A stretch of DNA of 35,289 nucleotides from IMG/VR virus record IMGVR_UViG_3300022752_000206, positions 1 to 35,289 of that record. One strand, written 5' to 3'. Made by a program: the position numbers and the translations under genes. The DNA comes from a virus. This document shows, one piece after another, positions 655 through 16,026 of this stretch. The notes beneath the pieces were generated by a model, which was not told where the DNA came from, made no database searches, and was given only the letters and a program-made list of their open reading frames with translations. Every line of letters starts with the position of its first letter. The stretch's first letter is position 1.

Positions 655-936
655 CTACTTTTCCTCCGGATTTGTGTCCTCGACAGGAACGTTTTGCTCG
701 TCCATCCTCTCCTCGATGGACTCGATCGGCACGTATATACCTACGACCGTTACCTTTCCGCAGGTTATACACTCGCAGACCGCACCTGGGCTAAGATTTA
801 GTGGGACGCTTACGTTCACGAGTCGTGTGATGATGTTCCCGCGCTCGTCGACGCTGTCAGGTTCCCAGACACTATTTTCCTGTATCCAGCACAGCTCGCA
901 CTGTGGAACAAGATCCTCGTCGTAGTCTCTAATCAT
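655..936 (-). CDS. Small zinc-ribbon-like protein, unknown function
   Basis: A 93-residue acidic protein that I do not recognise. It has two CxxC pairs (CELC near residue 13 and CITC near residue 56, followed by GK), a likely zinc ribbon. The C-terminus is rich in Glu and Pro. Its ATG overlaps the stop of the methyltransferase gene (TGATG), so it is probably translationally coupled to it. A small partner or nucleic-acid-binding role would be a guess. Confidence 0.7.
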   Translation of the reverse strand: MIRDYDEDLVPQCELCWIQENSVWEPDSVDERGNIITRLVNVSVPLNLSPGAVCECITCGKVTVVGIYVPIESIEERMDEQNVPVEDTNPEEK

Positions 937-2195
937 CAGCCCTTAGCTCCTATGGGACTAGAGTACCACTTTTTCTTCGCCGCGTGTCGGGAGAAGTCCT
1001 TGTCTCCGTTGATTAAAAATTCTCGATCTCCAATTTTTTCAGGAGCATCTCCCTCATGATTTCCCTCAAGTGAGTTTGTTATCGCGGTTGCGATATACTT
1101 TCCAGCCTGCACCGCGACCGCCTTTCCCCACACCGCGGACAGAGATGAGTAATCTCTAACACTTTCAATGTCCCAGTCATCAGGAAGTCCCTGCATGCGT
1201 GCAGCCTCACGGTGAGTTATAAGTCTTGGTTCGGTCGGATGAATAACGTGATCTAGCGCGGATCCGGTGAGAACGTTACACCAGTGATCCTCCTTCCATC
1301 GATAAGGCTGTGAGAAACCTAGCTTAAAGTTCTTGCGTAAGACTCGAGGAGATATATCTATCCACTTTTGTGGAAACTGTCCGTTGTTCATGTCAACTGC
1401 CTTCTTGATCGCACCGCCAAGATCACCGTTACCCTGCCAACCTTCGTTTCCGATGATGTCAAACACCTCCTCGATACGTTGAGCGTGTATGTTGGTCTTA
1501 CCCATGTGACCGTTTACAGTTCCGCTCTTTGATCTAAGGTGCTTAACCCACTTGCTTGCGGGAGCAATATACTTTTGTTCGTTCCATGACTGTGGCATCT
1601 TTGCAAGATCTCCAATGATGTCCATAATTCTTGGAAGTTCCTTTGGCTCCACGTGCGGTGCGTTAAACTTAATTCCACTTCTTACCGCTACCCAGAAGTA
1701 TCTTGGACGATATGAAAATCCACCAACCTGCAGGTTGTTGTGTTTCACATGGTATAGATCGTACTTCTTACCTGAGATCTCCTCAACCATGCGCCGATAC
1801 TTGTTCATTACGTCTCTTCCTTGTGTGTATGCCTGCTGTACACACTCAAATACAACTACCTTCGGTGCAACTCTTCCTGCGTATCGCATAAATGCTCTCG
1901 TGTGTTCATGTGCCTTTGCGTCAAGACCACGGTTAGCCTCACCTGACCAAACCGACCACCCTGAACACGGAGGACAACCTACGACTACGTCTGTTTTACT
2001 AACAGGCCACTCGCCTGGATCATCTGAGAAGTGATGTGTCCAGTTATCACCAAGATAATGACGGTTAGCCTCGGCAACTGGATTTCCAAAGTTTAATGTT
2101 CCAGTGCGTAGCTTCATCTCCATACCTGACTGCACAAAGCCTAGGCTCATGAAGCCGGCAAGACCGTTACAGTCAATAAAGTTAAGATCAGACAA
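936..2195 (-). CDS. C5-cytosine DNA methyltransferase (Dcm family)
   Basis: A 419-residue enzyme expected to transfer methyl from S-adenosylmethionine to C5 of cytosine in DNA. Visible motifs are an SAM-site-like FIDCNGLAGF at the N-terminus, catalytic GCPPC with Cys77 (motif IV), VFECV at residues 115-119 (motif VI, normally ENV, here ECV with the Glu kept), YRPRYFWVAV (motif VIII region), a RLITHREAARMQGLP block and GKAVAVQAG near the C-terminus (motif X). The start is TTG at 2195, preceded by AGGAGAGG. No restriction partner is visible. The phage may use it to mask its DNA. Its presence beside dCMP-hydroxymethylase-like and glycosyltransferase-like genes is unusual, because fully C5-substituted cytosine could not be methylated at C5. 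Confidence 0.88.
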   Translation of the reverse strand: MSDLNFIDCNGLAGFMSLGFVQSGMEMKLRTGTLNFGNPVAEANRHYLGDNWTHHFSDDPGEWPVSKTDVVVGCPPCSGWSVWSGEANRGLDAKAHEHTRAFMRYAGRVAPKVVVFECVQQAYTQGRDVMNKYRRMVEEISGKKYDLYHVKHNNLQVGGFSYRPRYFWVAVRSGIKFNAPHVEPKELPRIMDIIGDLAKMPQSWNEQKYIAPASKWVKHLRSKSGTVNGHMGKTNIHAQRIEEVFDIIGNEGWQGNGDLGGAIKKAVDMNNGQFPQKWIDISPRVLRKNFKLGFSQPYRWKEDHWCNVLTGSALDHVIHPTEPRLITHREAARMQGLPDDWDIESVRDYSSLSAVWGKAVAVQAGKYIATAITNSLEGNHEGDAPEKIGDREFLINGDKDFSRHAAKKKWYSSPIGAKG

Positions 2196-3190: not shown

Positions 3191-3670
3191 TTATTCCTCC
3201 TCGTCCTTTGGTAGACACTTGTTGCACATCTCAGGTTGCTTACCAACCCCTACGTCATCAATTGCACGGTAGCAAACTATACACTTGACACCCTTGCTTT
3301 TTACTACGTATCCTTCTAGTTGTCTTTTCTTGTTCTTTTCCATTTTCTCAAGATATAGACGATCAAGTACCTCGTCTGTTCCACCAGCCGCAACGATTAT
3401 GTTTGCGACAAAGTGAAGAACGTCAACCGCCTCCTTGATGATCTCCTCACGGTCTGCGTAAGGTTGATCGTGCTGCCAAGGTTTCCATGAGATTGCCTGG
3501 CGCATCTCTGCAAGTTCATCGTCAATCGCAAGCATGTTCCACCGCATATATTCAACTAACTTACGAATCTTGCGTGGATCATCACCTGCCATCTCATCAA
3601 AATCTATGAAATACACGTTCTTCTGTAGATCACGTGTTTTTCTTAGCCAACCTTCAAACAGTATTCCCAT
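3191..3670 (-). CDS. Dimeric dUTPase/dCTPase-type NTP pyrophosphatase with zinc tail
   Basis: A 159-residue all-alpha NTP pyrophosphatase. The metal-binding pattern is visible as DELAE (Glu52, Glu55), then WKPW, then KEAVDVLHF (Glu80, Asp83), as in the dimeric dUTPase family that includes T4 gp56 (dCTPase/dUTPase). It should hydrolyse a dNTP, most likely dUTP and possibly dCTP, to the monophosphate and pyrophosphate. The C-terminus adds a zinc-knuckle-like CIVC (130-133) and CNKC (149-152). The neighbouring glycosyltransferase-like genes and the dCMP-hydroxymethylase-like gene make dCTP removal an attractive role, since T4 uses this activity to keep unmodified cytosine out of its DNA. Substrate preference cannot be read from sequence. 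Confidence 0.8.
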   Translation of the reverse strand: MGILFEGWLRKTRDLQKNVYFIDFDEMAGDDPRKIRKLVEYMRWNMLAIDDELAEMRQAISWKPWQHDQPYADREEIIKEAVDVLHFVANIIVAAGGTDEVLDRLYLEKMEKNKKRQLEGYVVKSKGVKCIVCYRAIDDVGVGKQPEMCNKCLPKDEEE

Positions 3671-3672
3671 TG

Positions 3673-4695
3673 CTATGCCTTTCTACTAAATATCTCAAGT
3701 GAGTCTGATAGCATAACTGCCGCATCCCGCTTGTTTGGAATTGACTGTACGTATGTTTCTCTTTGTTCCTTTGCCAGCTTATTTCTTTCATCCGCCGACA
3801 TCTCCTCTATACTTGCCGCGATGTGAAGCCAAGGTTCTCCTAGGGCACCACTTTCACGCCAGTCAGTTGCAACCGGTGTAAGTGCATTTATTGATTGAAC
3901 TAGTCTATATGTCCACCAGGTTCCTCCGGTTTGATATGGACTAATAAGTGCACCTATTCCACTTGCGATCTGCGCGGAAACCTGTTCATCTGTCCAGCCC
4001 TTGTGCCACTTCATTGGAACGGTAGGACTTGATAGCGTCGCAAGTGTAGACTTAGTCCAGTTAGTTGAGAAGTTTTCAACCACCCACTTTTCACGACGTT
4101 CAATCTCAATTGGATCCTGCATCGTAAGTATATATGAATCTAGGTTTATACCTTTTATCGACGCGGCCGCACCTACAGGAAGTTGAGATATTACCTTTCC
4201 AGTTCCGGACCAAGGAAGAGACGGATACAAGGTTGTTGGCCAGGTATCCTCTAGTAGATAGTCAACAACACCCATCAGGTCATCAAGAACGCTAGGTGTA
4301 CTTGCGTGCATGTAACCCTTGCGGTATGAGTAAAAAGATTTTGTCATGTTCTGTGGATTCTTTGACATCGCGCGAAGGCTTGCGGTAATCCTCACAGGTT
4401 CAGGTGCGTCAATGTAAAGTGCAAGTTTATCAGAATCATGTAATACATCAATGACGTTTAACGCGCCGTATACGCGGTTGGCACTTAAACTTGTCAGTGG
4501 ACTTAGGCCAACAAGAACGTGATCGTACTCGTTTAGGTCAGACGCCTCCCAGGATATCTCCGGATCTGTTTGAACAACCTCGTGACCTTGAACTGTTAGG
4601 ACGTGTGATAGTAAACTTGCAAATGAAAGTGATCTTCTATTTGCGTCGGTAGATGCGTGCGGCGCGGACATTCCTGTTAATAAGATCTTACTCAT
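3673..4695 (-). CDS. Glycosyltransferase-like protein (GT-B type), copy 2
   Basis: A 340-residue protein related to the adjacent upstream gene. It opens with MSKILLTGMSAP, a Rossmann-like strand and loop, and has an early VLVGLSPLTSLSANRVYGAL block. The C-terminal half carries LISPYQTGGTWWTYRLV, then VATD and LGEPW, matching the neighbour's LSPPYPHAGSGWWRSRF, VTD and LGDP. This layout fits the sugar-nucleotide-binding half of a GT-B glycosyltransferase. The ATG overlaps the neighbour's stop (ATGA). Given the context, I infer that the pair glycosylates a modified base in phage DNA; a lipid or protein acceptor is possible. No known family symbol can be assigned. Confidence 0.65.
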   Translation of the reverse strand: MSKILLTGMSAPHASTDANRRSLSFASLLSHVLTVQGHEVVQTDPEISWEASDLNEYDHVLVGLSPLTSLSANRVYGALNVIDVLHDSDKLALYIDAPEPVRITASLRAMSKNPQNMTKSFYSYRKGYMHASTPSVLDDLMGVVDYLLEDTWPTTLYPSLPWSGTGKVISQLPVGAAASIKGINLDSYILTMQDPIEIERREKWVVENFSTNWTKSTLATLSSPTVPMKWHKGWTDEQVSAQIASGIGALISPYQTGGTWWTYRLVQSINALTPVATDWRESGALGEPWLHIAASIEEMSADERNKLAKEQRETYVQSIPNKRDAAVMLSDSLEIFSRKA

Positions 4696-5903
4696 GCACG
4701 TGTCCCGTCTGCGTTTAACTTAACGCCCTTGTCCTCGGCAACCGCACGTTCAATAATTCGGTTGCAGTGTTCAACAAACCTGTCATACGGTGGAATATAA
4801 GGTGCAAGTGCATTTCTCTGCGCAAGTGCAGCCTCTGCTAGTTCATCGGTGGACATCTTTTCAACGTCCGCGATCTTTAACTTATACGGATCACCTAGCG
4901 GATCACCCTCACCCTTGTCGGTAACAAGAATTGATCCAACGTGCGCCGCATATAAAAAGCGACTACGCCACCAGCCTGATCCTGCGTGTGGATACGGCGG
5001 AGAAAGAATTCCCCAGTGTCTGTTATAAAACTCAAGTACGTCCTTCTCCGTATCAAATCTTTGTCCACCTAGTTTTTTAATTAGCTTACGACTTCCCACG
5101 ATCTCAACCGGCCAGGTAGGTGTCTTTCTTTCAAGCCAGCCGTCATGTGGCATTAGAGCTCCAAGTACCCACGCGCGTTTCTTTTCCGTCGCCGCAAGTT
5201 CAGTTACACCCTGCATCGTCGGAACTACAGTCGCGGTTGGATCAAGTGCCTCGATCGGACCTACGTCACTTGGCATGCGCCTACGCACGATTGAACGATC
5301 ACCAAACGAGTACATCGGACAGACCGGAACCATACCCGCTGCCCACCGTGCGTCTATAAGATCAGCCGCGGCTTGAACAAGACGCTTCTCCCAAGGTTTA
5401 ATGTTCTCATCGTTATCCATCATGTAGTAGCGCTCGATGTAGCACTTCTTTGCCGCGTCTGGATTTGCCTGTTTAATTCTTTCAAGTGCAGCCTCGATGT
5501 CCGCGCGACTAAAATACGTTGCGCCTTCATCACCGCGATGCTCGGTTCCAACTAAAAGATGCTTGTACAACATCTGTGGTTTACGAATTAGTGCACGTGC
5601 TCCGTTAAATACGGTGTTCGTCTGCCAATCATCAAAGAAACCTACGCAGGGAATACCTGATGAAAGTGCGTATAACGCACCCATCGCACCTTGACGTCCG
5701 TTAAGTGAGTTTAACGGTGCAAGATTGATCCATAGAACGTCATATGAGGACAGATCCTCGCCAGGTGTGATCTTACGCCAGTCAACTTCATGTCCTGACT
5801 CACGCAGCGCCTTAACAATAGACGCAGGCACGTCAATCTTTTGAATCGTACGTTTTTCCGTGTTGATCTGCAACGCGGTAAAACCACTAACCAATACTTT
5901 CAT
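4692..5903 (-). CDS. Glycosyltransferase-like protein (GT-B type), copy 1
   Basis: A 403-residue paralogue of the next gene. The N-terminal domain has MKVLVSGFTALQ and VLWINLAPLNSLNGRQGAMGAL. The C-terminal domain has GILSPPYPHAGSGWWRSRF, then GSILVTDKGEGDPLGDPY, and an alpha-helical end with TDELAEAALAQRNALAPY. It is about 60 residues longer than its partner, mostly in the middle. It heads a short operon whose promoter-like region contains an inverted repeat (5938-5966). The ATG is preceded by AAAGG. Two tandem paralogues could add two sugars in sequence, or act as a heterodimer. Acceptor and donor are unknown; DNA glycosylation is inferred from context. Confidence 0.67.
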   Translation of the reverse strand: MKVLVSGFTALQINTEKRTIQKIDVPASIVKALRESGHEVDWRKITPGEDLSSYDVLWINLAPLNSLNGRQGAMGALYALSSGIPCVGFFDDWQTNTVFNGARALIRKPQMLYKHLLVGTEHRGDEGATYFSRADIEAALERIKQANPDAAKKCYIERYYMMDNDENIKPWEKRLVQAAADLIDARWAAGMVPVCPMYSFGDRSIVRRRMPSDVGPIEALDPTATVVPTMQGVTELAATEKKRAWVLGALMPHDGWLERKTPTWPVEIVGSRKLIKKLGGQRFDTEKDVLEFYNRHWGILSPPYPHAGSGWWRSRFLYAAHVGSILVTDKGEGDPLGDPYKLKIADVEKMSTDELAEAALAQRNALAPYIPPYDRFVEHCNRIIERAVAEDKGVKLNADGTRA

Positions 5904-7325: not shown

Positions 7326-8258
7326 TTAGTCTGCACTGCCTTTCTTTTCTTCTACCCCGTAGTATGCGTACGGATTAGAAACCTCAAATGCGTCTTCAAT
7401 CGCAGCCTCAGCCGCACTTCCATCGTCAAACATCGGACAGATGGTGAAGAACTGGCACTTCCACTTGCAATCACGTGAAGGACGAGGATACGCAACAAAG
7501 CGATGATCTCCTCCTTCGTCAAGTGCCTTTCGTGTGTTTAACATGTCACTAAGTGTTCCATGAATTCTTTGCCAAAACGATCTAAGTGCAAATACGTTGT
7601 GTCGTACCTCAAGTTGCTCGTAAAACGGTGGACGCGCGTTGGCAGAACGCTTAACCTTCTTTAACATTGTGAAGATACCACCCTCAGAACGTTCACCTTC
7701 CTTGTTCTGTGCTGTCTCTAACATCATATATGTAAGAATCTGCTCGTTCATGTGTGCCATGCTTGAGAAGTCGGTAAATGAGCCGCCAACTGTCTTAAAG
7801 TCACGGAACATACGAACACCGTCAGCCTTACGACGAACGCGCATGTCGATCTTTCCTTGAAGTACCACAGAATTATCCAGTAAAGGCATTGAGATAATTT
7901 CCTCGGTTGAGATCATCTCTAACTCTGCGTCAATTCCATTTTCCTCAACCCACTGTAGGTAACCCTCAAGCATGATGCGTCCAAGCTCTGCCTCTGACTC
8001 AAGATCATAAGTATCACGATACGCCTCAACCAGTATCTTTTTATCGTTATCAACAAGTTGTGCGTGCGCATCAAGAAGTGGTATGTTCTTTGAGTAGTAC
8101 ATATCAAGTGCCTCGTGAATACGTGAACCAAGTGCAAGTGCACCCGTCATCTGCTTAGACTTTGGCTGTAGTCTACGGTAGTAACTTAACCACCACTTTC
8201 TACGGCAGTCCTTATATGTTTGTACCTCAGAGTTTGAGATATGTAGTGGCTCGGTCAT
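7326..8258 (-). CDS. Cas4/RecB-type PD-(D/E)XK exonuclease with iron-sulphur motif
   Basis: 310 residues. The nuclease core shows His49, then GKIDMRV (Asp138) and FRDFKT (Asp153, Lys155), followed by a QxxxY-like QILTYMM. One early cysteine (Cys18 in YKDCRRKWW) plus three late ones (Cys264, Cys268, Cys274 in CKWKC...C) form the split four-Cys arrangement of Cas4/AddB proteins, which hold a 4Fe-4S cluster. It probably resects DNA ends for recombination or degrades host DNA. The ATG overlaps the helicase stop (ATGA). No CRISPR genes are nearby, so this is the stand-alone phage version. Confidence 0.87.
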   Translation of the reverse strand: MTEPLHISNSEVQTYKDCRRKWWLSYYRRLQPKSKQMTGALALGSRIHEALDMYYSKNIPLLDAHAQLVDNDKKILVEAYRDTYDLESEAELGRIMLEGYLQWVEENGIDAELEMISTEEIISMPLLDNSVVLQGKIDMRVRRKADGVRMFRDFKTVGGSFTDFSSMAHMNEQILTYMMLETAQNKEGERSEGGIFTMLKKVKRSANARPPFYEQLEVRHNVFALRSFWQRIHGTLSDMLNTRKALDEGGDHRFVAYPRPSRDCKWKCQFFTICPMFDDGSAAEAAIEDAFEVSNPYAYYGVEEKKGSAD

Positions 8259-11146
8259 AGGTTTCCTGCCTTATCGTCCTTTAGTAGTGTAAGTAACTTA
8301 TCCTTGTCGCGAACTATCTGTTCAAAGTTATCGGCCTTTGTCTCAAGTACCTGGATAACACGTTCCTCAATAGTTCCCTCTGTTACGTAGTCCGTAACGA
8401 TGATCGAGTCATGAATCTCAGATCCAATACGGTGAACACGGTCTAGTGCCTGACGATGATCAACTAGTGACCAAGGTCGTTGTAACATGATTAAACGTCT
8501 TGCCGCGGTTAAAGTAATTCCAACTCCTCCAGCCTGTGCGGTAAACAGAATCCACTTGATCTTTCCTGCCTGAAAGTCATCAACCGCCTGTTGGCGTTCA
8601 TCATCTGTTTGAGCGCCGGTTATAAGACCATGCGCAATTTTTTCCTTGGTTAACGCCGCACTTAAAAGATATATAAGTTGTCGTGATACCGCGCATACCG
8701 CAACAGAGTCATTTCCAAAGTCACCATTTTTTATGTCGTCCATAAGTGCGTCAACCTTACATGAAGGATCAGCAAGTATTGCCTTGATCTCACCTGTCTC
8801 CTCGTTTGCCGCGATCTCTGCGTATGAGCTTGCAAACTGTAAGAGACGAATAGTCTGCGTTAGTGCGCTAGGTGCGGTAATTGCCTCGCCACCCTCTAGC
8901 TCCGCGATCATCATGTCACGCATCTGGTCATAAGCCTTCTTTTGTTTTGTGCTCATCTCAACGTCACGACGTTCAAACATCATTTCCGGCAACCATGGAA
9001 GTACCTTTGCCTTTAACATGCGTCTCATTCTTGGATTTAACGCGGCATAAAACTCAGGTTCCATGTGTGGCTTTATTCCTAAAACCATCATTCCACCAAA
9101 TGCGTTAAGCATTGTGTTAACCATGCGATCAATCCAGCGTGTCTTACTTGGCCACTCCTCAGGACTTAACCAGTGAAGAATAGGCCACAGGTCAACTACT
9201 GTATTTGCAATAGGCGTTCCTGTTAGAGCAAATCGAACATCTGCATCACCTGTTGCAGCCCATAAGGCTCGGGACTGCTTACTCTTTGGCTCTTTGCTTC
9301 TATGACAGTTACGAACTAAAACTTTATTAGCAAAATAATTGCCTGTAGAAGTTGTTATTGAGTAGACAGTTGTTGTATTTTTTGAATAACTATCTCGGCA
9401 CACCTGCTCGTATCTTTGTGAACTTCTGAGTTCCAAAAGCGGATGATGGTCCAATCCATGCTTTCCAATTTCTTGCTTCGAACTACATCTGCAGCTTTTC
9501 TTTCTTGATGATGGTGTACTCCACCGTCTACTTCTACTGCCAATTTTATCTCCGGAAATCCAATGTCTAAAAATGCGCAAGTAGTTCCAGTGTTTCCCGG
9601 AAAGTTGAATCGAACTAACCATTCTTTTTCGTGCGGAGGCAGCCTTTCTGATAACATTTTCACCTCTGGAGAAGTCCTCCTTCTGTTGATACTCATTCCA
9701 GCTGCTGCTCTCTGCCATCCACGCTTCCCATTGGCTGAACGAATTGCTGGATCCATATTCTTGAAAGGGTTGCTTTCTGATAAAAGATGTCGCCTCACCG
9801 CTTGGTACAGTTTGCTCTCTGGGTCCAACATGTGCTTTGACATTGTCCTTGAGCGAGATTCTCGAACTCCAGGCTGATCTGCTCTCCACAGTTGCACACA
9901 TCTTCTTGTGCAAAATCTTGAAGTTTTCTTCTGGTAAGGTGGCTGATACAACTTTTTGCACCACTCGCAATTCTTTACTGGTTGTAGAGTTCTTCTTGAT
10001 GGAGTTTTTGAGTACGCCTTCTTTCCATTTGCTCCCGCTGAACAGCGCTTTGAACAATAAACTCTTCCCCTGTGTGTTGTTAAAGACTCTTTGCATTTGA
10101 ATTCTTGGTGACACATCTTGCATTGTTTTACTATCAATGGCATACAGCACATCACCTTCTACTAAGTCTCCTAGGGGGCGGTATCCTTCACCCTTTACAT
10201 AGAAAGGGTGGTTTGGAGTTGCTCCCCACTCGGTTACTATTGTATCACTATTTCGGTTCATCGTATCAAGTACTGTCGACAAAACTACTTTATTTTTATT
10301 ATGATCATAACCCCAAATTTGATCTCCTGGTTTTAACTGATCTATAGCCTTAAATCCATGTGGCGTGCTTATTGGCGTTTCCTTTACAAAGCACTCGTCT
10401 GCAACTACAGCCTTAAAGTCAATTCCGTTTAGTTCTCGCTTGTGAACCTCGCAACGATTTTCTGTGACCTTCTCGTCGTGTCCGCCGCAGTCCTTACAGC
10501 GGGCAAGTGCAACAGATCCGTATGGTGCAAGTCTTGAGTGACCGCGTAGAGATTCCCAGTTGATAATAAACACCTGCGCAGGTTCATCAAATTGCTTACG
10601 TCTTTGAGTTGCTGAGCCCTTAATTATCTGTATATCCAGTCCTGGCCACCACTTGTCAAACTCGCGCTTCCAGTTTTTCTTAAGGGTGTTAGGGCAGACG
10701 ATCAACGCCGGAAATATAGGTGTTCCATTTTCCTGTAATAGCTTAAGTGCTCGTATTGCCTGGGCTGTCTTTCCTAGTCCAGGTTCGTCGGCAAGTAGGG
10801 CACGTCTGGCCGTCGCTAGAAACTTTACACCTGCTCTTTGATGCGGGAATAGGTCCTCGTTTAGCGGGTCCTCAAGGGACTCTAGTTCACGTAATTCGTT
10901 CGCTGGGGTAATTCTATTGGCAAGCTCGTTGCCTGCCCACTCGGTCAACCTAGGGCCAATAACAAGGTCATTCTTAAAGGTAGATCGAAGCGCAAGACAT
11001 GTAGCCCAGCTCGTTGGGACGCTCCAAACCATGGTGGTCGCATCCCACTTGGCTCCAGGGATACTCTTACAAAGTTCCTTAAAGCGCCACTCAGCATTAA
11101 TAACTATATGCTTGTTTGTCTCGCTCAACTCCACGCTAACGGGCAA
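8255..11146 (-). CDS. SNF2-family helicase interrupted by an intein
   Basis: 963 residues as translated; about 601 after removal of a 362-residue intein (residues 252-613). The N-terminal extein has a beta-rich lead-in, the Walker A ADEPGLGKT (120-127) and a CxxC...C patch. The intein splits motif II between DE and CH. The C-terminal extein has LTGTPIAN (motif III), GGVGITLTAA (motif V) and QALDRVHRIGS (motif VI), which is SNF2 rather than UvrD type. It should be an ATP-driven DNA translocase for replication, repair or remodelling. The start is TTG with AAAGGA eight bases upstream. The +1 residue after the intein is the Cys of DECH, so splicing should be needed to rebuild the ATPase site. Confidence 0.93.
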   Translation of the reverse strand: MPVSVELSETNKHIVINAEWRFKELCKSIPGAKWDATTMVWSVPTSWATCLALRSTFKNDLVIGPRLTEWAGNELANRITPANELRELESLEDPLNEDLFPHQRAGVKFLATARRALLADEPGLGKTAQAIRALKLLQENGTPIFPALIVCPNTLKKNWKREFDKWWPGLDIQIIKGSATQRRKQFDEPAQVFIINWESLRGHSRLAPYGSVALARCKDCGGHDEKVTENRCEVHKRELNGIDFKAVVADECFVKETPISTPHGFKAIDQLKPGDQIWGYDHNKNKVVLSTVLDTMNRNSDTIVTEWGATPNHPFYVKGEGYRPLGDLVEGDVLYAIDSKTMQDVSPRIQMQRVFNNTQGKSLLFKALFSGSKWKEGVLKNSIKKNSTTSKELRVVQKVVSATLPEENFKILHKKMCATVESRSAWSSRISLKDNVKAHVGPREQTVPSGEATSFIRKQPFQEYGSSNSFSQWEAWMAESSSWNEYQQKEDFSRGENVIRKAASARKRMVSSIQLSGKHWNYLRIFRHWISGDKIGSRSRRWSTPSSRKKSCRCSSKQEIGKHGLDHHPLLELRSSQRYEQVCRDSYSKNTTTVYSITTSTGNYFANKVLVRNCHRSKEPKSKQSRALWAATGDADVRFALTGTPIANTVVDLWPILHWLSPEEWPSKTRWIDRMVNTMLNAFGGMMVLGIKPHMEPEFYAALNPRMRRMLKAKVLPWLPEMMFERRDVEMSTKQKKAYDQMRDMMIAELEGGEAITAPSALTQTIRLLQFASSYAEIAANEETGEIKAILADPSCKVDALMDDIKNGDFGNDSVAVCAVSRQLIYLLSAALTKEKIAHGLITGAQTDDERQQAVDDFQAGKIKWILFTAQAGGVGITLTAARRLIMLQRPWSLVDHRQALDRVHRIGSEIHDSIIVTDYVTEGTIEERVIQVLETKADNFEQIVRDKDKLLTLLKDDKAGNL
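9308..10393 (-). mobile_element. Intein in the helicase DECH box
   Basis: Residues 252-613 of the helicase reading frame. Block A starts at Cys252 (CFVKETPISTPHGF) and continues with LKPGDQIWGYD. Block B is WGATPNHPF (the TxxH motif). The C-terminal blocks are VYSITTSTGNYFANK and VLVRN, with terminal Asn613 followed by extein Cys614. The usual penultimate His is Arg here, a known variation. The splicing parts total only about 110 residues. The long centre (roughly residues 340-590) has no LAGLIDADG or HNH motif in this frame and reads as Ser/Arg/Lys-rich filler, because a real gene occupies another frame there. Confidence 0.93.
9355..10155 (-). CDS. Overprinted Vsr/DUF559-type homing endonuclease nested in the intein
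   Basis: A 266-residue protein, wholly inside the intein and one frame away from it. Two zinc-finger-like units come first: C12xxC15 with C34xxxC38, and C63xxC66 with C82xxxC86. A DUF559/Vsr-like nuclease fold follows: TSPEVKMLSERL, FLDIGFPEIKLAVEVDGGVHH (Asp197, Glu208, Asp210) and DWTIIRFWNSEV. A stop codon lies two codons upstream of the GTG at 10155, so translation must begin locally. Starts at 10155 (GTG), 10152 (ATG) and 10143 (ATG) are possible. AGGAG lies 12 bases before the GTG, and AGAAGG lies 11 bases before the ATG at 10143. It probably cuts intein-free helicase alleles to drive homing. The protein looks far more natural than the same DNA read in the intein frame. Confidence 0.87.
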   Translation of the reverse strand: MMCCMPLIVKQCKMCHQEFKCKESLTTHRGRVYCSKRCSAGANGKKAYSKTPSRRTLQPVKNCEWCKKLYQPPYQKKTSRFCTRRCVQLWRADQPGVRESRSRTMSKHMLDPESKLYQAVRRHLLSESNPFKNMDPAIRSANGKRGWQRAAAGMSINRRRTSPEVKMLSERLPPHEKEWLVRFNFPGNTGTTCAFLDIGFPEIKLAVEVDGGVHHHQERKAADVVRSKKLESMDWTIIRFWNSEVHKDTSRCAEIVIQKIQQLSTQ

Positions 11147-11231: not shown

Positions 11232-11692
11232 TACTGAAGTAGGCGCATTGGCTTCCAACCTATCTTTACAAACCTCAATAATCCGTGTCTTATGGCGTCA
11301 AGTGCGTGTCCGTCACCTCCGCGGTGCCAATATTCCAGTTTTTTAAGTTTATCGTTCGCAAACATACCCTTTGCGTCGGAAGGTGACTGGAAGATTATTG
11401 ACTCCGGATCAATCTCATTATCCAGCATGATTTGGCGCAATATCCCGATCTGCTCCAGCGAGTAGGGTGCCTGGGAGTTCTTTACGGTCTGCATGTTTAT
11501 GGTAAATCTTTCACAGACTATATCTATAGGAATATCTTTATCTTTTGACATGGTGATTGCGTCACGTATGGGCTTGGCGTACTCGCGCATCTGATACTCA
11601 CCTGACGAGATAAGCCTAGGCTCGGTTCCGTCATATTCAAACAGCGCGACTCCACTTGCCTTTCCTGGGTCAACCGCTAGAACTAACTTCAT
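11231..11692 (-). CDS. RuvC-like Holliday junction resolvase
   Basis: A 153-residue RNase H-fold nuclease. The acidic catalytic set is visible as AVDPGKASG (Asp8), IVCERF (Glu61) and GGDGHALDAIRHG (Asp127, Asp132, with His129). RuvC-type enzymes cut four-way junctions that form during phage replication and recombination, freeing DNA for packaging. The ATG overlaps the polymerase stop (ATGA), so it is coupled to replication gene expression, and a terminator-like hairpin follows. Confidence 0.85.
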   Translation of the reverse strand: MKLVLAVDPGKASGVALFEYDGTEPRLISSGEYQMREYAKPIRDAITMSKDKDIPIDIVCERFTINMQTVKNSQAPYSLEQIGILRQIMLDNEIDPESIIFQSPSDAKGMFANDKLKKLEYWHRGGDGHALDAIRHGLLRFVKIGWKPMRLLQ

Positions 11693-13512
11693 CTGTACTT
11701 TGCTCCCCAGTTGTCAAGAGGCCCATCTATACCAGCCGACAAAGGAACGTCCCAGCCCTCACGCGTTGTCATGCACTCCTGAACAACCTTCATGATCTCC
11801 TGTGCGTCCTTACGCGGAGCGTTCAGAACAATTTCATCGTGCACCGGAACGATTAGGTACTCTGTTAGATCTGCCTGGTCAAGTTTTACTAGGTTAGCCT
11901 TAAATATCTCAGCCGCGCCTCCTTGGATTAAATAATTCAACGCAGAATATGCCCTATCATCATCGCAAGGAAGCCTACGTCCTGTCCAGGTGTATACGTA
12001 CCCTTGTCCTTCAGCACGAATTCTACGCATCACAACATCTTCAATTTGTCGTTGAAACATAGTCATTCCAGGAAAACGTTTGTCAAATTCATCAGATGTA
12101 ATTTTCATTTGTTTCTCTGGCACACCTGCTGTTAAAGCTTGCTTAGCTATACCTGCACCATACAAACGTCCATAGATCATTCCTTTAATGAGTCCTCTAC
12201 GTCTATCTGATCGTTGGAAAGATGGGTCTTGATATACTTCACGACCAATGTCTGTGAAAGGATCTGAACCTGCTGCGTCAGCGTTGTTGAACAGTGATAT
12301 GAGATTTGGATCCTTTGACAGTGATGCTGCCATACGAAACTCAACCTGGTCAAGGTCTGATGTGATGATAACATGATCTTCATCCTTCGGTATAAACGCG
12401 GTGCGAACGGTGTCATCACCCTTTGGCAAGGTTTGCAGCGCTGGGTTTTGTATGGACATGCGACTTGTGCGGGCACCAAGTGTTTTTACAGATGGATGAA
12501 CAAATCCATTTACGTTATCATTTATAAAGTTTAGAAAATATGTGTTTGCAAGCTTATCTGCCTTACGCTGTTTTAGTGTAACCTCGGCTAGTTTCTTTAC
12601 CTCGTCATTACCGGTTATCGTAAGTAACTTAAGTTGGTCCTTGGTTACCGCCTTGTTACCTGTAGGTGTAAACTCTGTAATCTCTGCGCCTAGATCTTCA
12701 AAAAGACGAACAAGCTGCATGTTACTTGATATTGAGACGCCGTTGTAGGTCTGCTTTGCCCAGGTTTTTACCGACTCGCTATACTGAGTTAACTCGTCGT
12801 ACTTACGTCTTGAGTAATCAAGATCAATTCTTGCCCCGTTTATCTCCATGCGTGTAACGATACGTCTTGTGGCCATCTCAAGTTCATAAGCCTTGTTGTA
12901 TGGACCTCCTGGGCCGCATTTTTCATAAAACATCTCCCAGATACGCATGGTAAGAACAGTATCAAGAGCTCCGTATGCCCAGTAAGGCTGAAAGTTCGTA
13001 GGAACAGTTCCCCACGTCCATCCATTTTTAATAAGTTCAATGTCAAGTGATTCCTGCAATGCTACCGCACGTCCGTCAACGTGAAGAGCAGCTAATCTTT
13101 TTAACGCACCTGATCCTAGAGGATCAATTATGTGCGCTTGTATCATTGTGTCGTGTGCCCTGTGCCACGGAAGTTTCCAGTTAGATTGAATATCAAACCA
13201 ACGAGCCTCAAACGCAATGTTGTGACAGACTATAGGACCATCAAACTTATCCATAGCCTCATAGAAGACACCTGACCACTCCTTCCAAGGAATTGCCCAA
13301 CCTTGCTTGCCGTCTCCAACCTGTACAAGTCTTAGTTGACCGTGCCAGGGAGATAGTGCATGATCTCTCTCACCTCCTGGAAGCTCGCCGGTCTCGGTGT
13401 CAATCGCAATTGCGTTGTGCGGACGACGCTCACCTAGCCAGGAGATAAACTCACGTGCCTTGTCAACGTTGTCAACGAGGTGAAGTTGAACGTCCTGTAA
13501 ATTATCTGTCAA
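11689..13512 (-). CDS. Family A DNA polymerase with 3'-5' exonuclease domain
   Basis: 607 residues, the phage replicative polymerase. The exonuclease domain (about 1-200) has AIDTETG (Asp38, Glu40), HNIAFEARW (Glu102 where Asp is usual) and YGALDTV. The polymerase domain has motif A TSDLDQVEFR (Asp386), motif B RRGLIKGMIYGRLYG (Lys443, Tyr447) and motif C VPVHDEIV near residue 570. There is no N-terminal 5' nuclease domain, as is common for phage enzymes. Tyr447 aligns with Phe762 of E. coli Pol I, the residue that is Tyr in T7 polymerase and relaxes discrimination at the sugar. The start is TTG at 13512 with AGAGGA six bases upstream, overlapping the deaminase stop. Confidence 0.93.
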   Translation of the reverse strand: MTDNLQDVQLHLVDNVDKAREFISWLGERRPHNAIAIDTETGELPGGERDHALSPWHGQLRLVQVGDGKQGWAIPWKEWSGVFYEAMDKFDGPIVCHNIAFEARWFDIQSNWKLPWHRAHDTMIQAHIIDPLGSGALKRLAALHVDGRAVALQESLDIELIKNGWTWGTVPTNFQPYWAYGALDTVLTMRIWEMFYEKCGPGGPYNKAYELEMATRRIVTRMEINGARIDLDYSRRKYDELTQYSESVKTWAKQTYNGVSISSNMQLVRLFEDLGAEITEFTPTGNKAVTKDQLKLLTITGNDEVKKLAEVTLKQRKADKLANTYFLNFINDNVNGFVHPSVKTLGARTSRMSIQNPALQTLPKGDDTVRTAFIPKDEDHVIITSDLDQVEFRMAASLSKDPNLISLFNNADAAGSDPFTDIGREVYQDPSFQRSDRRRGLIKGMIYGRLYGAGIAKQALTAGVPEKQMKITSDEFDKRFPGMTMFQRQIEDVVMRRIRAEGQGYVYTWTGRRLPCDDDRAYSALNYLIQGGAAEIFKANLVKLDQADLTEYLIVPVHDEIVLNAPRKDAQEIMKVVQECMTTREGWDVPLSAGIDGPLDNWGAKYR

Positions 13513-13982
13513 TTTTTATCCTCTAGTATTGTTACCTCGATATTACACTTCCTGTAGTACTCAAGTACAATCTCAGGTTGACGGTGTTTTGCCCTTGAAA
13601 GAATTCTCATAACAACTCTTGATACTCCTGAGTTAGAAACAAGCTTTGCGCACTGCATACACGATGCGTCTGTGATGTAGATCGTTCCTCCCTCCATTCT
13701 TGACCTGTCTACGTATAAAAGTGCGTTTGATTCCGCGTGTATCGCAGGGCATGTGTCATACATGTTGTCAAGAGGTGTTACTCCCTGTGCACGTGGACAC
13801 CAGTTTATACAGTCTCCCTCAACAGGATAGTCCTTTGCAGGTCCGTTGTAACCTGTAGAACTTATGCGTTGGTCCTTTGAGACAACAACCGCGCCGATCT
13901 GTGCACGGCTACAGCGTGAACGTAGTGCCACCGTGTCGGCAACGCGCATCCAAATCTCATCCCAGGACGGTCTATTGTTCAT
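13509..13982 (-). CDS. dCMP deaminase
   Basis: A 157-residue zinc-dependent cytidine-deaminase-fold enzyme that converts dCMP to dUMP. The zinc and catalytic motifs are CPAIHAESNALL (His82, Glu84) and SCMQC (Cys108, Cys111). An extended N-terminal region with a GYNG motif and further Cys/His residues is typical of dCMP rather than free-cytidine deaminases. In T4-like modified phages this enzyme works beside dCMP hydroxymethylase and supplies dUMP for thymine. The hydroxymethylase-like gene lies just upstream, separated by one small gene. Confidence 0.9.
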   Translation of the reverse strand: MNNRPSWDEIWMRVADTVALRSRCSRAQIGAVVVSKDQRISSTGYNGPAKDYPVEGDCINWCPRAQGVTPLDNMYDTCPAIHAESNALLYVDRSRMEGGTIYITDASCMQCAKLVSNSGVSRVVMRILSRAKHRQPEIVLEYYRKCNIEVTILEDKN

Positions 13983-14169
13983 CTAGCGGACCAAATAACG
14001 ACGTAACCATGACGTTGGATATAAGAAACAATGCATCACGGCGACTAAATCCTGCAAGTCTTAACTCCTCATACATGACGTGAAGTGTTATTGCCGCCTC
14101 GCGCAGAGGAGGAACAAAGGTTTTTTCTACCTCAAGACGGTCCTTATCACTGTCATCATTTTTGTTCAT
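13972..14169 (-). CDS. Small hypothetical protein between nucleotide enzymes
   Basis: A 65-residue protein that I do not recognise. It starts MNKNDDSDKD with an acidic and charged head, followed by two amphipathic helices (REAAITLHVMYEELRLAG and RRDALFLISNVMV). It overlaps the deaminase start by 11 bases and the upstream gene's end by 14, with AAGGA upstream of its ATG. The packing supports a real coupled gene. Confidence 0.6.
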   Translation of the reverse strand: MNKNDDSDKDRLEVEKTFVPPLREAAITLHVMYEELRLAGFSRRDALFLISNVMVTSLFGPLDEQ

Positions 14170-15028
14170 TTTTTAATTTTTCCTTGTTATTTTCAATTGC
14201 CTTCCTCATCGCTTTCGTGTACCACGTCTCGGTTATGTCAATTATGTTGTATACCTCTTCATTGTTTTTATCAACCGCGGTAAGAGCCATCAACGCAAAG
14301 TTTTGTACCTCTTTCCAGGTTACCGCAACTATGTTAGGTATGTTGACGTATTTGTCTGTGTATTTTAAGTTTTCAGCCATGTCATAGTGCTGCTCGTAGA
14401 TATGAAGTGATCCAACGTGGTGGGTGTACTTACCTGGCTTGATGCCTAAAACAGAAGCCATGGCAATTTGAACGCGGGTAAACTGGAAGAAGTCATACGC
14501 CGCACCTAGCCAAACGTCGTTTGATCTCATGTAGACTGACATGTTTAACTTGTTATCACGAATTCTAAACTGGTGAAGTATTGTGCATGGATAATCACGC
14601 TTACTTGGAAGTAGATCAAGCTTAGGATCCCAGATTGTAACTACGGCCTGTCTTGAGTCTGGATCATTTTTTAGACGCTCAATTACAGGACCGTATTGAT
14701 CAACTGTTCTCAATCCGTATGCTCCATGAAATAAACCGTTGTCCTCGGTGTAGTTCTTAAACTGTGGTCCGATGTCCATGACAAGTTTTGGCATAGATAT
14801 ACCTGCAAGTAACTGACAAGCCTCAACTGCTCCGATACCTGCGACCGTTCCGCGTCCTACGCCCAGAGGCAGTGTGTTGTGAACGTCGTCAATGCGAATT
14901 ACCGCGTCCTCAATCTCACGGGTCTTCATTCCGCGTGGAGCAGCCTCCCTGCCGTGCTTGAGAACGTGCTGAACAAGATCAACGTAACCGTTAACCGCAT
15001 CAGGTATGTTTATTACCGCAGTATCCAT
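14156..15028 (-). CDS. Thymidylate-synthase-family enzyme, dCMP hydroxymethylase-like
   Basis: A 290-residue member of the thymidylate synthase fold. Phosphate-binding DSRQAVV (Arg126), catalytic YPC (Cys148), RSNDVWLGAAYD (ending at Asp179) and SLHIYEQHYD (His209, Tyr211) are all present. Classical enzymes have PFN at the end of the RS.D...G block, and that Asn reads the uracil ring. Here it is Asp179, 31 residues after the Cys. T4 gp42 dCMP hydroxymethylase has the same Cys148 and Asp179. It should therefore act on dCMP, adding hydroxymethyl (or possibly methyl) from methylene-tetrahydrofolate. The start ATG has AAAGGA upstream and overlaps the kinase stop. A plain thymidylate synthase is less likely. 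Confidence 0.85.
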   Translation of the reverse strand: MDTAVINIPDAVNGYVDLVQHVLKHGREAAPRGMKTREIEDAVIRIDDVHNTLPLGVGRGTVAGIGAVEACQLLAGISMPKLVMDIGPQFKNYTEDNGLFHGAYGLRTVDQYGPVIERLKNDPDSRQAVVTIWDPKLDLLPSKRDYPCTILHQFRIRDNKLNMSVYMRSNDVWLGAAYDFFQFTRVQIAMASVLGIKPGKYTHHVGSLHIYEQHYDMAENLKYTDKYVNIPNIVAVTWKEVQNFALMALTAVDKNNEEVYNIIDITETWYTKAMRKAIENNKEKLKNEQK

Positions 15029-16026
15029 GGGCTGTCCTTTTCTAGGTTGTCATACGCACTTTTTTCAATTGCCTGTCCGTATAGTTCCTTGTCCTTGTGG
15101 TGAAACCTTCTTACGTACTGTGGGTGAGGAAGAACGTCGTAGTGCTTTGGGTTTATCTCTGTTCGCATGATTGCCTTCTCCGCAAGACGACCAAGCACAA
15201 CTATTCGTGGACGGTTAAGGTCAAGCCAAAGATCGTTTAGGTTAAACTCAAAGTCATTTGCGTTTATGATTCCAACTCTCTTCCAAAAGGTGTCGGGAAG
15301 AGCTGAAAGTAAGAAATCTCCGGAGTTTCCATCAACAGGCATAAAGGGGAGCTGGGTCTCCTCGCCATATCTTTTAACGATATTTCGTCGATCACCGATG
15401 AGAAGTACGTCAGGATCTGGAGACCCGATGTAGCTGTTGTACCTAGTTATATACCTCGTATCGTTAAGTTTTTTCTCAGCCGCGTCTACAACCTTCACCG
15501 CAAGCTCGTCAACCTTGTCAAGACTGTTAGGACCAGGACTAAGTTTATCGGTAAGTGAGGCGGAAAGTATTGATGCAATTTCATACTGTTCAAGAATATA
15601 CTCAAGCTCGTTAACGTCAACAAAGTCATCACCGCGAGATCCTAGGCGAGACTTGATGACCTCAAGTGGTTGATAGAGCCAAAACTCTGCAACGCCTCGT
15701 GATAGTAAAAATAACTCTGTCCAACGCCAGCCTGCCTTTCCAAGTAGGCCATATCCATCTAAATTTGTGTGTGCTCGTTTTAATGGAGCATATGTGATCT
15801 CGCCCCAGTGCCAGCGATCTGAGATGATCGTCTCACTATTAAAGTTTGTTTCCTCACAGGACGTTACGTATTCATTTAATACCCAGCGGCGTGTCTCCTC
15901 AAGAGGACGCCCCTTGTGGGACATCGTTATTTTTCTATCAGGATAGCGTCTATTAACCTCGTTCTCAACCGCAGAGATTAAAGAGGTCTTGCCTGAGGCG
16001 TCCGTTCCTTCAACTACTATAAACAT
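15013..16026 (-). CDS. Deoxynucleoside monophosphate kinase fused to a UDG-fold domain
   Basis: 337 residues in two parts. Residues 1 to about 185 are a thymidylate-kinase-type P-loop kinase: FIVVEGTDASGKTS (Gly7-Ser15), SDRWHWGE and a late helical lid. Residues about 200-337 look like a uracil-DNA-glycosylase-superfamily fold: PDVLLIGD, LPFMPVDGNSGDFLL, GIINAND, PRIVVLG and a late LPHPQYVRR (His301). The usual first motif (GE.PG or GQDPYH) is replaced by GDRRN, so the second domain may bind a base without excising it. The kinase would raise dTMP or hydroxymethyl-dCMP toward the triphosphate. The gene sits immediately upstream of the hydroxymethylase-like gene and overlaps it by 16 bases. Confidence 0.75.
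   Translation of the reverse strand: MFIVVEGTDASGKTSLISAVENEVNRRYPDRKITMSHKGRPLEETRRWVLNEYVTSCEETNFNSETIISDRWHWGEITYAPLKRAHTNLDGYGLLGKAGWRWTELFLLSRGVAEFWLYQPLEVIKSRLGSRGDDFVDVNELEYILEQYEIASILSASLTDKLSPGPNSLDKVDELAVKVVDAAEKKLNDTRYITRYNSYIGSPDPDVLLIGDRRNIVKRYGEETQLPFMPVDGNSGDFLLSALPDTFWKRVGIINANDFEFNLNDLWLDLNRPRIVVLGRLAEKAIMRTEINPKHYDVLPHPQYVRRFHHKDKELYGQAIEKSAYDNLEKDSPWILR

Follow-up and report, generated by a model that had tools for sequence, protein, structure and literature searches.

The locus and its conserved gene order

The window analysed here is an entire virus record of 35,289 bases, and the features discussed below are listed in Table 1. Central to this study is an ORF of 290 aa with an ATG start, located on the minus strand of an interval whose plus strand carries stops throughout. 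It shares 16 bases with the ORF of its kinase neighbour, an operon-like arrangement. Pfam, PHROGs and NCBIfam agree in assigning the product to the thymidylate synthase (TS) superfamily, and both the fold and the catalytic Cys/His/Tyr/Arg set are present, while the NCBIfam scores all fall under the curated cut-off for true TS. The match to PF00303 covers the profile only up to position 235 of 266, and thus the C-terminal tail of TS is not recognisable in the ORF. When PDB entries are ranked, MilA, a CMP hydroxymethylase, is placed above every thymidylate synthase.

Table 1. Positions of the features discussed, in window coordinates.
Feature	Position	Strand	Evidence
C5-cytosine DNA methyltransferase-like protein	936..2195	minus	PF00145 4.2e-23
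gp56-like all-alpha NTP pyrophosphatase	3191..3670	minus	PF08761 1.4e-11
GTa glycosyltransferase, GTb paralogue	3673..4695	minus	hhalign 99.9% probability, E 5e-33
GTb glycosyltransferase, GT-B fold	4692..5903	minus	AF2 pLDDT 85; T4 BGT 1nzd Z 16.6
SNF2-type helicase ORF, apparent intein	8255-11146	minus	weak Hint matches
Candidate homing-endonuclease ORF	9355-10155	minus	DUF559 9.2e-14
Family A DNA polymerase (PolA), same operon	11689..13512	minus	NCBIfam PRK05755 1e-57
dCMP deaminase	13509..13982	minus	PF00383 2.4e-18; phrog_174 7.7e-42; HAE and CxxC present
Conserved small ORF lying between the hydroxymethylase and deaminase genes	13972..14169	minus	in 61/81 loci
Predicted dCMP hydroxymethylase, TS superfamily	14156..15028	minus	PF00303 1.6e-30; MilA best PDB match 1.6e-23
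Nucleotide kinase, TMPK/YorR fold (residues 1-200) and C-terminal domain	15013..16026	minus	phrog_761 thymidylate kinase 1.6e-11
Kinase C-terminal domain	15016-15441	minus	weak UDG superfamily signal

The gene order kinase-hydroxymethylase-dCMP deaminase-PolA is retained in nearly all of 81 relatives. Within the limits set by contig ends and the flanks retrieved, the order continues across these loci after PolA with RuvC-like, helicase, nuclease, RecA-like and SSB-like genes, GTb, GTa and the gp56-like gene. GTb and the gp56-like gene are each present in 13 of 14 long relatives, and every one of these genomes carries one TS homologue; a second TS or a ThyX is found in none of the 14, which leaves the host as the necessary source of dTMP. 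The SNF2-type helicase ORF (963 aa) is apparently interrupted by an intein within its DECH motif; its Hint matches all lie below the Pfam cut-off, and the helicase of the lake phage DSL-LC01 spans about 600 aa as against 963 aa in the window. Inside the presumed intein, a 266-aa ORF in another frame carries a DUF559 endonuclease domain and is a candidate overlapping homing-endonuclease gene.

Residues that distinguish the enzyme from thymidylate synthase

The initial annotation had drawn attention to a catalytic Cys148 followed exactly 31 residues later by Asp179, and this spacing is exact: Cys148 lies in DYPCTILHQF and Asp179 in RSNDVWLGAAYDFFQF. The same pair had been claimed for T4 gp42, and our alignment bears this out, with the two window residues aligning with C148 and D179 of gp42 and with C146 and N177 of E. 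coli ThyA. The comparison rows comprised T4 gp42, MilA (residues taken from its profile-match alignment), SPO1 gp29, RB69 ORF048 and E. coli ThyA. The flanking motif had been described as family-typical, which applies to the hydroxymethylases, where RSND recurs, but not to E. coli TS, which has RSCD. Asp145, three residues N-terminal of the cysteine, had gone unremarked.

Conservation was assessed in 59 distinct relatives (IMG/VR sequences, DSL-LC01 and the window itself, down to ~65% identity). Ten positions are invariant in 59/59, namely E69, Y104, D145, C148, T149, S169, D171, D179, H209 and Y211, and these include the catalytic cysteine, the cytosine-selecting Asp179 and, at the position three residues before the cysteine where an Asp or Glu is expected of a dCMP hydroxymethylase, D145. 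With C148 and D179 invariant in all members and the other discriminating positions in agreement, the pairing is, on this alignment, not a product of chance. Positions 145, 149 and 179 together sort the superfamily: TS enzymes have Leu/His/Asn, the dUMP hydroxymethylases of SPO1 and Montesquieu have Asp/Asn/Asn, and the dCMP hydroxymethylases of T4 and two T4-like relatives have Asp/Thr/Asp, the combination found in the window. SPO1 gp29 and the Montesquieu enzyme thus share Asp145 and the RSND motif with the window enzyme but differ in Asn179 and Asn149, which point to a uracil substrate. The Pseudoxanthomonas phage PW916 protein (L088:3280-4098) is annotated as a deoxyuridylate hydroxymethyltransferase, yet has the dCMP-type Asp/Thr/Asp. 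In environmental phages, the two residues that ranked highest for association with modified cytosine are those at E. coli positions 177 and 147 (PMC8670742), and the window is changed at both.

Could the enzyme nevertheless be an ordinary thymidylate synthase, converting dUMP to dTMP with Asp179 tolerated, and forming a dTTP supply operon with the deaminase and a TMP kinase? The TS fold and annotation, the operon shared with the deaminase and a TMPK-like kinase, and the single TS homologue of the long relatives would all agree with this. We nonetheless consider it quite improbable, since Asn177, His147, Leu143 and Trp83 (E. coli numbering) are all replaced, by Asp, Thr, Asp and Tyr, respectively, and the TS tail is not recognisable, whereas Mooshroom TS, a true actinophage TS, retains all TS residues.

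Taken alone, the Asn-to-Asp change sets the base and is compatible with a dCMP methylase; the case for hydroxymethylation is built on Asp145 together with the lost TS features. In T4, Asp145 is regarded as the hallmark of hydroxymethylation, activating the water that becomes the hydroxyl, and a D145N substitution abolishes product (PMC6400193). A methylase that would use folate to convert dCMP to 5-methyl-dCMP, and so lead to 5mC DNA like that of phage XP12, draws on the effect of the Asn-to-Asp change in TS, which results in dCMP methylation according to work cited in PMC8670742. This outcome is highly unlikely here, as the window enzyme has Asp145 and lacks Trp83 and the TS tail, like the hydroxymethylases of the comparison, and as the two glycosyltransferases of the locus need a hydroxyl acceptor.

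A 5-hydroxy-dCMP synthase of the kind reported for RB69 (PMC13390438), with the sugar joined directly via the C5 oxygen, would belong to the same superfamily, would likewise have Asp at 179 and would be accompanied by glycosyltransferases, as it is in RB69/Mosigvirus phages (PMC13390438). The only reference for this activity is RB69 ORF048, the TS homologue of that region, which is assumed to be the synthase; in that protein position 145 is Glu, the folate Asp171 and the RSND..G motif are gone, and Phe stands in place of Tyr211. Asp145, Asp171, RSND..G and Tyr211 are all retained in the window family, so its residues are not those of ORF048 and a synthase of this type has very little probability.

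MilA (5b6d), the closest solved relative, shares the equivalents of D145, D179 and T149 and raises a further alternative, that of a ribonucleotide (CMP) hydroxymethylase serving a small molecule and not DNA. MilA, however, acts in antibiotic synthesis and has Lys133 and Ala176 as its ribose determinants (PMC5175136), which in the window are Arg126 and Ser169, the deoxyribose state, and the window gene sits in a replication operon. An enzyme acting on CMP is therefore scarcely credible here.

One difference stands against assignment as a dCMP hydroxymethylase. The T4 signature Ser/Thr-x-Tyr (Ser94-x-Tyr96) is replaced by Gly102-x-Tyr104 in 59/59 relatives. At the position of T4 Ser94 the dUMP hydroxymethylase SPO1 gp29 carries Ala, which indicates that the serine is not universal and that Gly102 does not exclude hydroxymethylation. 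From the residue pattern, MilA as best solved relative, the gene neighbourhood and the conservation, we infer a folate-dependent dCMP 5-hydroxymethylase, with a probability of roughly 84%. The initial annotation had arrived at the same enzyme by way of gp42, and its proposal is favoured with the qualification that the protein is probably no gp42 orthologue and does not have Ser94 of T4.

Descent of the enzyme

In a superfamily tree of 30 rows, the IMG/VR clade joins the Gordonia phage enzymes (100/97), and together they fall near the phage G, MilA and SPO1-type proteins, where deep branches are long and support is moderate. A separate group contains gp42, its T4-like relatives and the enzyme of Microbacterium phage McGalleon, with the window clade outside it. 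The window enzyme resembles gp42 in C148, D145, Y104, T149, S169, D171 and D179, but lies on a separate branch of the superfamily and has Gly for Ser94; judged from these sequences, it probably works like gp42 and is not its orthologue. Placement apart from gp42 counts against the dCMP hydroxymethylase reading and, given the long deep branches, is suggestive. The McGalleon enzyme (L137:2941-3708), annotated as a thymidylate synthase, belongs to the gp42 lineage with D145/T149/D179 and a Ser at the T4 Ser94 position, with a glycosyltransferase and a kinase close by. McGalleon is thus a predicted second actinophage lineage with a dCMP hydroxymethylase.

Among named phages, the hydroxymethylase residues of the Gordonia phages GodonK, Phendrix, Sixama, Forza and GMA2 are the same as those of the window in all five, and homologues of both GTb and GTa are found in these five and in Actinomycetia phage DSL-LC01 (OQ999401). 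The initial annotation had anticipated that routine annotation would call such a gene thymidylate synthase, and this is true of DSL-LC01, GodonK, Phendrix, Forza and Sixama; TS is the usual label of the relatives, with hypothetical protein in one GMA2 record. DSL-LC01 and GodonK both have the gp56-like gene, the kinase, the deaminase-PolA order and the C5-methyltransferase. They differ from the window in that DSL-LC01 has an extra UDP-galactopyranose mutase, while in GodonK the transferases map to a different part of the genome, accompanied by two further annotated transferases. The authors of the GMA2 study noted glycosyltransferases and methylases and called their purpose unclear (PMC4524720). 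DSL-LC01 is an uncultivated lake phage with a metagenome-assembled genome, and its mutase was read as a cell-wall gene; the text of that paper makes no mention of thymidylate synthase or hydroxymethylation (PMC10611076).

Probable genes for the nucleotide pool

The T-even glucosyl-hmC pathway consists of gp42, gp56, gp1 and the alpha- and beta-glucosyltransferases (GT). The window has a gp56-homologous pyrophosphatase, a dCMP deaminase, an NMP kinase fold and GT-B transferases, and differs from T4 in that its transferases are without detectable sequence kinship and its polymerase is of family A. A putative gp56-family dCTPase is present: the pyrophosphatase matches T4 gp56 by BLASTP (29%, E 4e-10), T4 gp56 itself also matches PF08761, and the protein is likely to act as a dCTPase/dUTPase. 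The kinase is likely to be an hm-dCMP/dTMP kinase; its AF2 model (pLDDT 92.8) aligns with YorR (2axp) at Z 18.0 over 170 residues at 2.6 Å. The UDG superfamily signal in its C-terminal domain is below threshold (best E 0.0023, 7/15 members). In contigs with modified DNA, TS, dCMP deaminase and pyrophosphohydrolase domains co-occur (PMC8670742).

The C5-methyltransferase, which has ECV in place of the usual ENV, is kept in 11 of the 14 long relatives and in DSL-LC01 and GodonK. Its presence in the cassette is odd and counts against the proposed pathway if every cytosine is already substituted.

The glycosyltransferases and the possible sugar

GTb has a GT-B fold. Its model aligns with T4 BGT (1nzd) over 304 residues at 4.3 Å, tied for best with PimA and SenB, and scores 15.1 against T4 alpha-GT. 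The alignments for both structure models were made without rows from annotated phage records. Neither GTb nor GTa has a match in Pfam, a profile search against PDB sequences returned nothing, and sequence alignment of GTb with T4 BGT gave no signal, so that the likeness to BGT is one of fold. A resemblance of FFDDWQ to LFTDIR around BGT Asp100 was judged by eye. On its modelled structure, GTb is a candidate DNA (hmC) glycosyltransferase; against this counts its resemblance to several GT-B enzymes about equally, the shared fold being no proof of a DNA substrate.

GTb homologues occur in DSL-LC01, the Gordonia phages and T4-like phages, while phage homologues of GTa are confined to the Gordonia phages and DSL-LC01. 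Two T4-like phages were examined, Erwinia FBB1 and Aeromonas 60AhydR15PP; both have a gp42-type enzyme and a UDP-galactopyranose mutase adjoining the GTb homologue. DSL-LC01 likewise pairs GTb with this mutase. The proximity of mutase and homologous transferase suggests a galactofuranose donor in phages with this pairing. None of the 14 long IMG/VR relatives has a UDP-galactopyranose mutase, which makes galactofuranose less convincing as the sugar throughout. A strict link between GTb and the hydroxymethylase was rejected, as cyanophage C48C1 (L094:6001-8033) has a GTb homologue overlapping the mutase gene in a genome without a TS-family gene. As a speculative and rather unlikely extension, actinophage cytosine might be fully replaced by hmC bearing galactofuranose, possibly as a disaccharide, that a new GT-B family would attach, with the donor coming from the phage's own mutase or, where there is none, from the actinobacterial host. 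A galactofuranosyl-hmC base was not found in the literature searched.

Proposed pathway and implications

In the pathway proposed here, the gp56-like pyrophosphatase would eliminate dCTP while providing dCMP. Cys148 would attack C6 of dCMP, the cytosine ring being recognised and protonated by Asp179, where TS uses Asn for uracil. With a one-carbon unit taken from methylene-tetrahydrofolate, water activated by Asp145 would then attack the exocyclic methylene, yielding 5-hydroxymethyl-dCMP and not a methyl group. Phosphorylation of hm-dCMP towards the triphosphate would fall to the neighbouring NMP kinase, and incorporation to the phage polymerase. Once in DNA, the hydroxymethyl group would receive one or two sugars from GTb and GTa, a modification that would protect against host restriction. 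A glycosyl-hmC pathway in this virus has good but indirect support, and it fits the gp56-like dCTPase, the dCMP deaminase, the NMP-kinase fold and the two paralogous GT-B transferases nearby. What the computations establish are the residues, the protein family, the operon structure and the fold of the transferase; enzyme activity, the roles of kinase and dCTPase, how far cytosine is replaced and the nature of the sugar are predictions.

dCMP hydroxymethylase is a known enzyme type that has apparently gone unreported in this actinophage group; a search of open-licence papers gave no report of hmC in actinophages. As read from its sequence, the gene very probably serves to produce 5-hydroxymethyl-cytosine for the genome of a common actinobacterial virus of freshwater, and the nearby sugar-transfer genes probably decorate this base so as to shield the DNA from host enzymes, a tactic close to that of phage T4, which employs other proteins for it. 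At least 116 IMG/VR stretches contain relatives, the nearest named one coming from lake water, and hypermodified cytosine may therefore be common in freshwater actinophages. The Gordonia phages carrying the same set are isolates, which makes the prediction directly testable. If it is true, many actinophage thymidylate synthases in databases would need renaming, and the pair of unstudied glycosyltransferases might provide a new DNA sugar.
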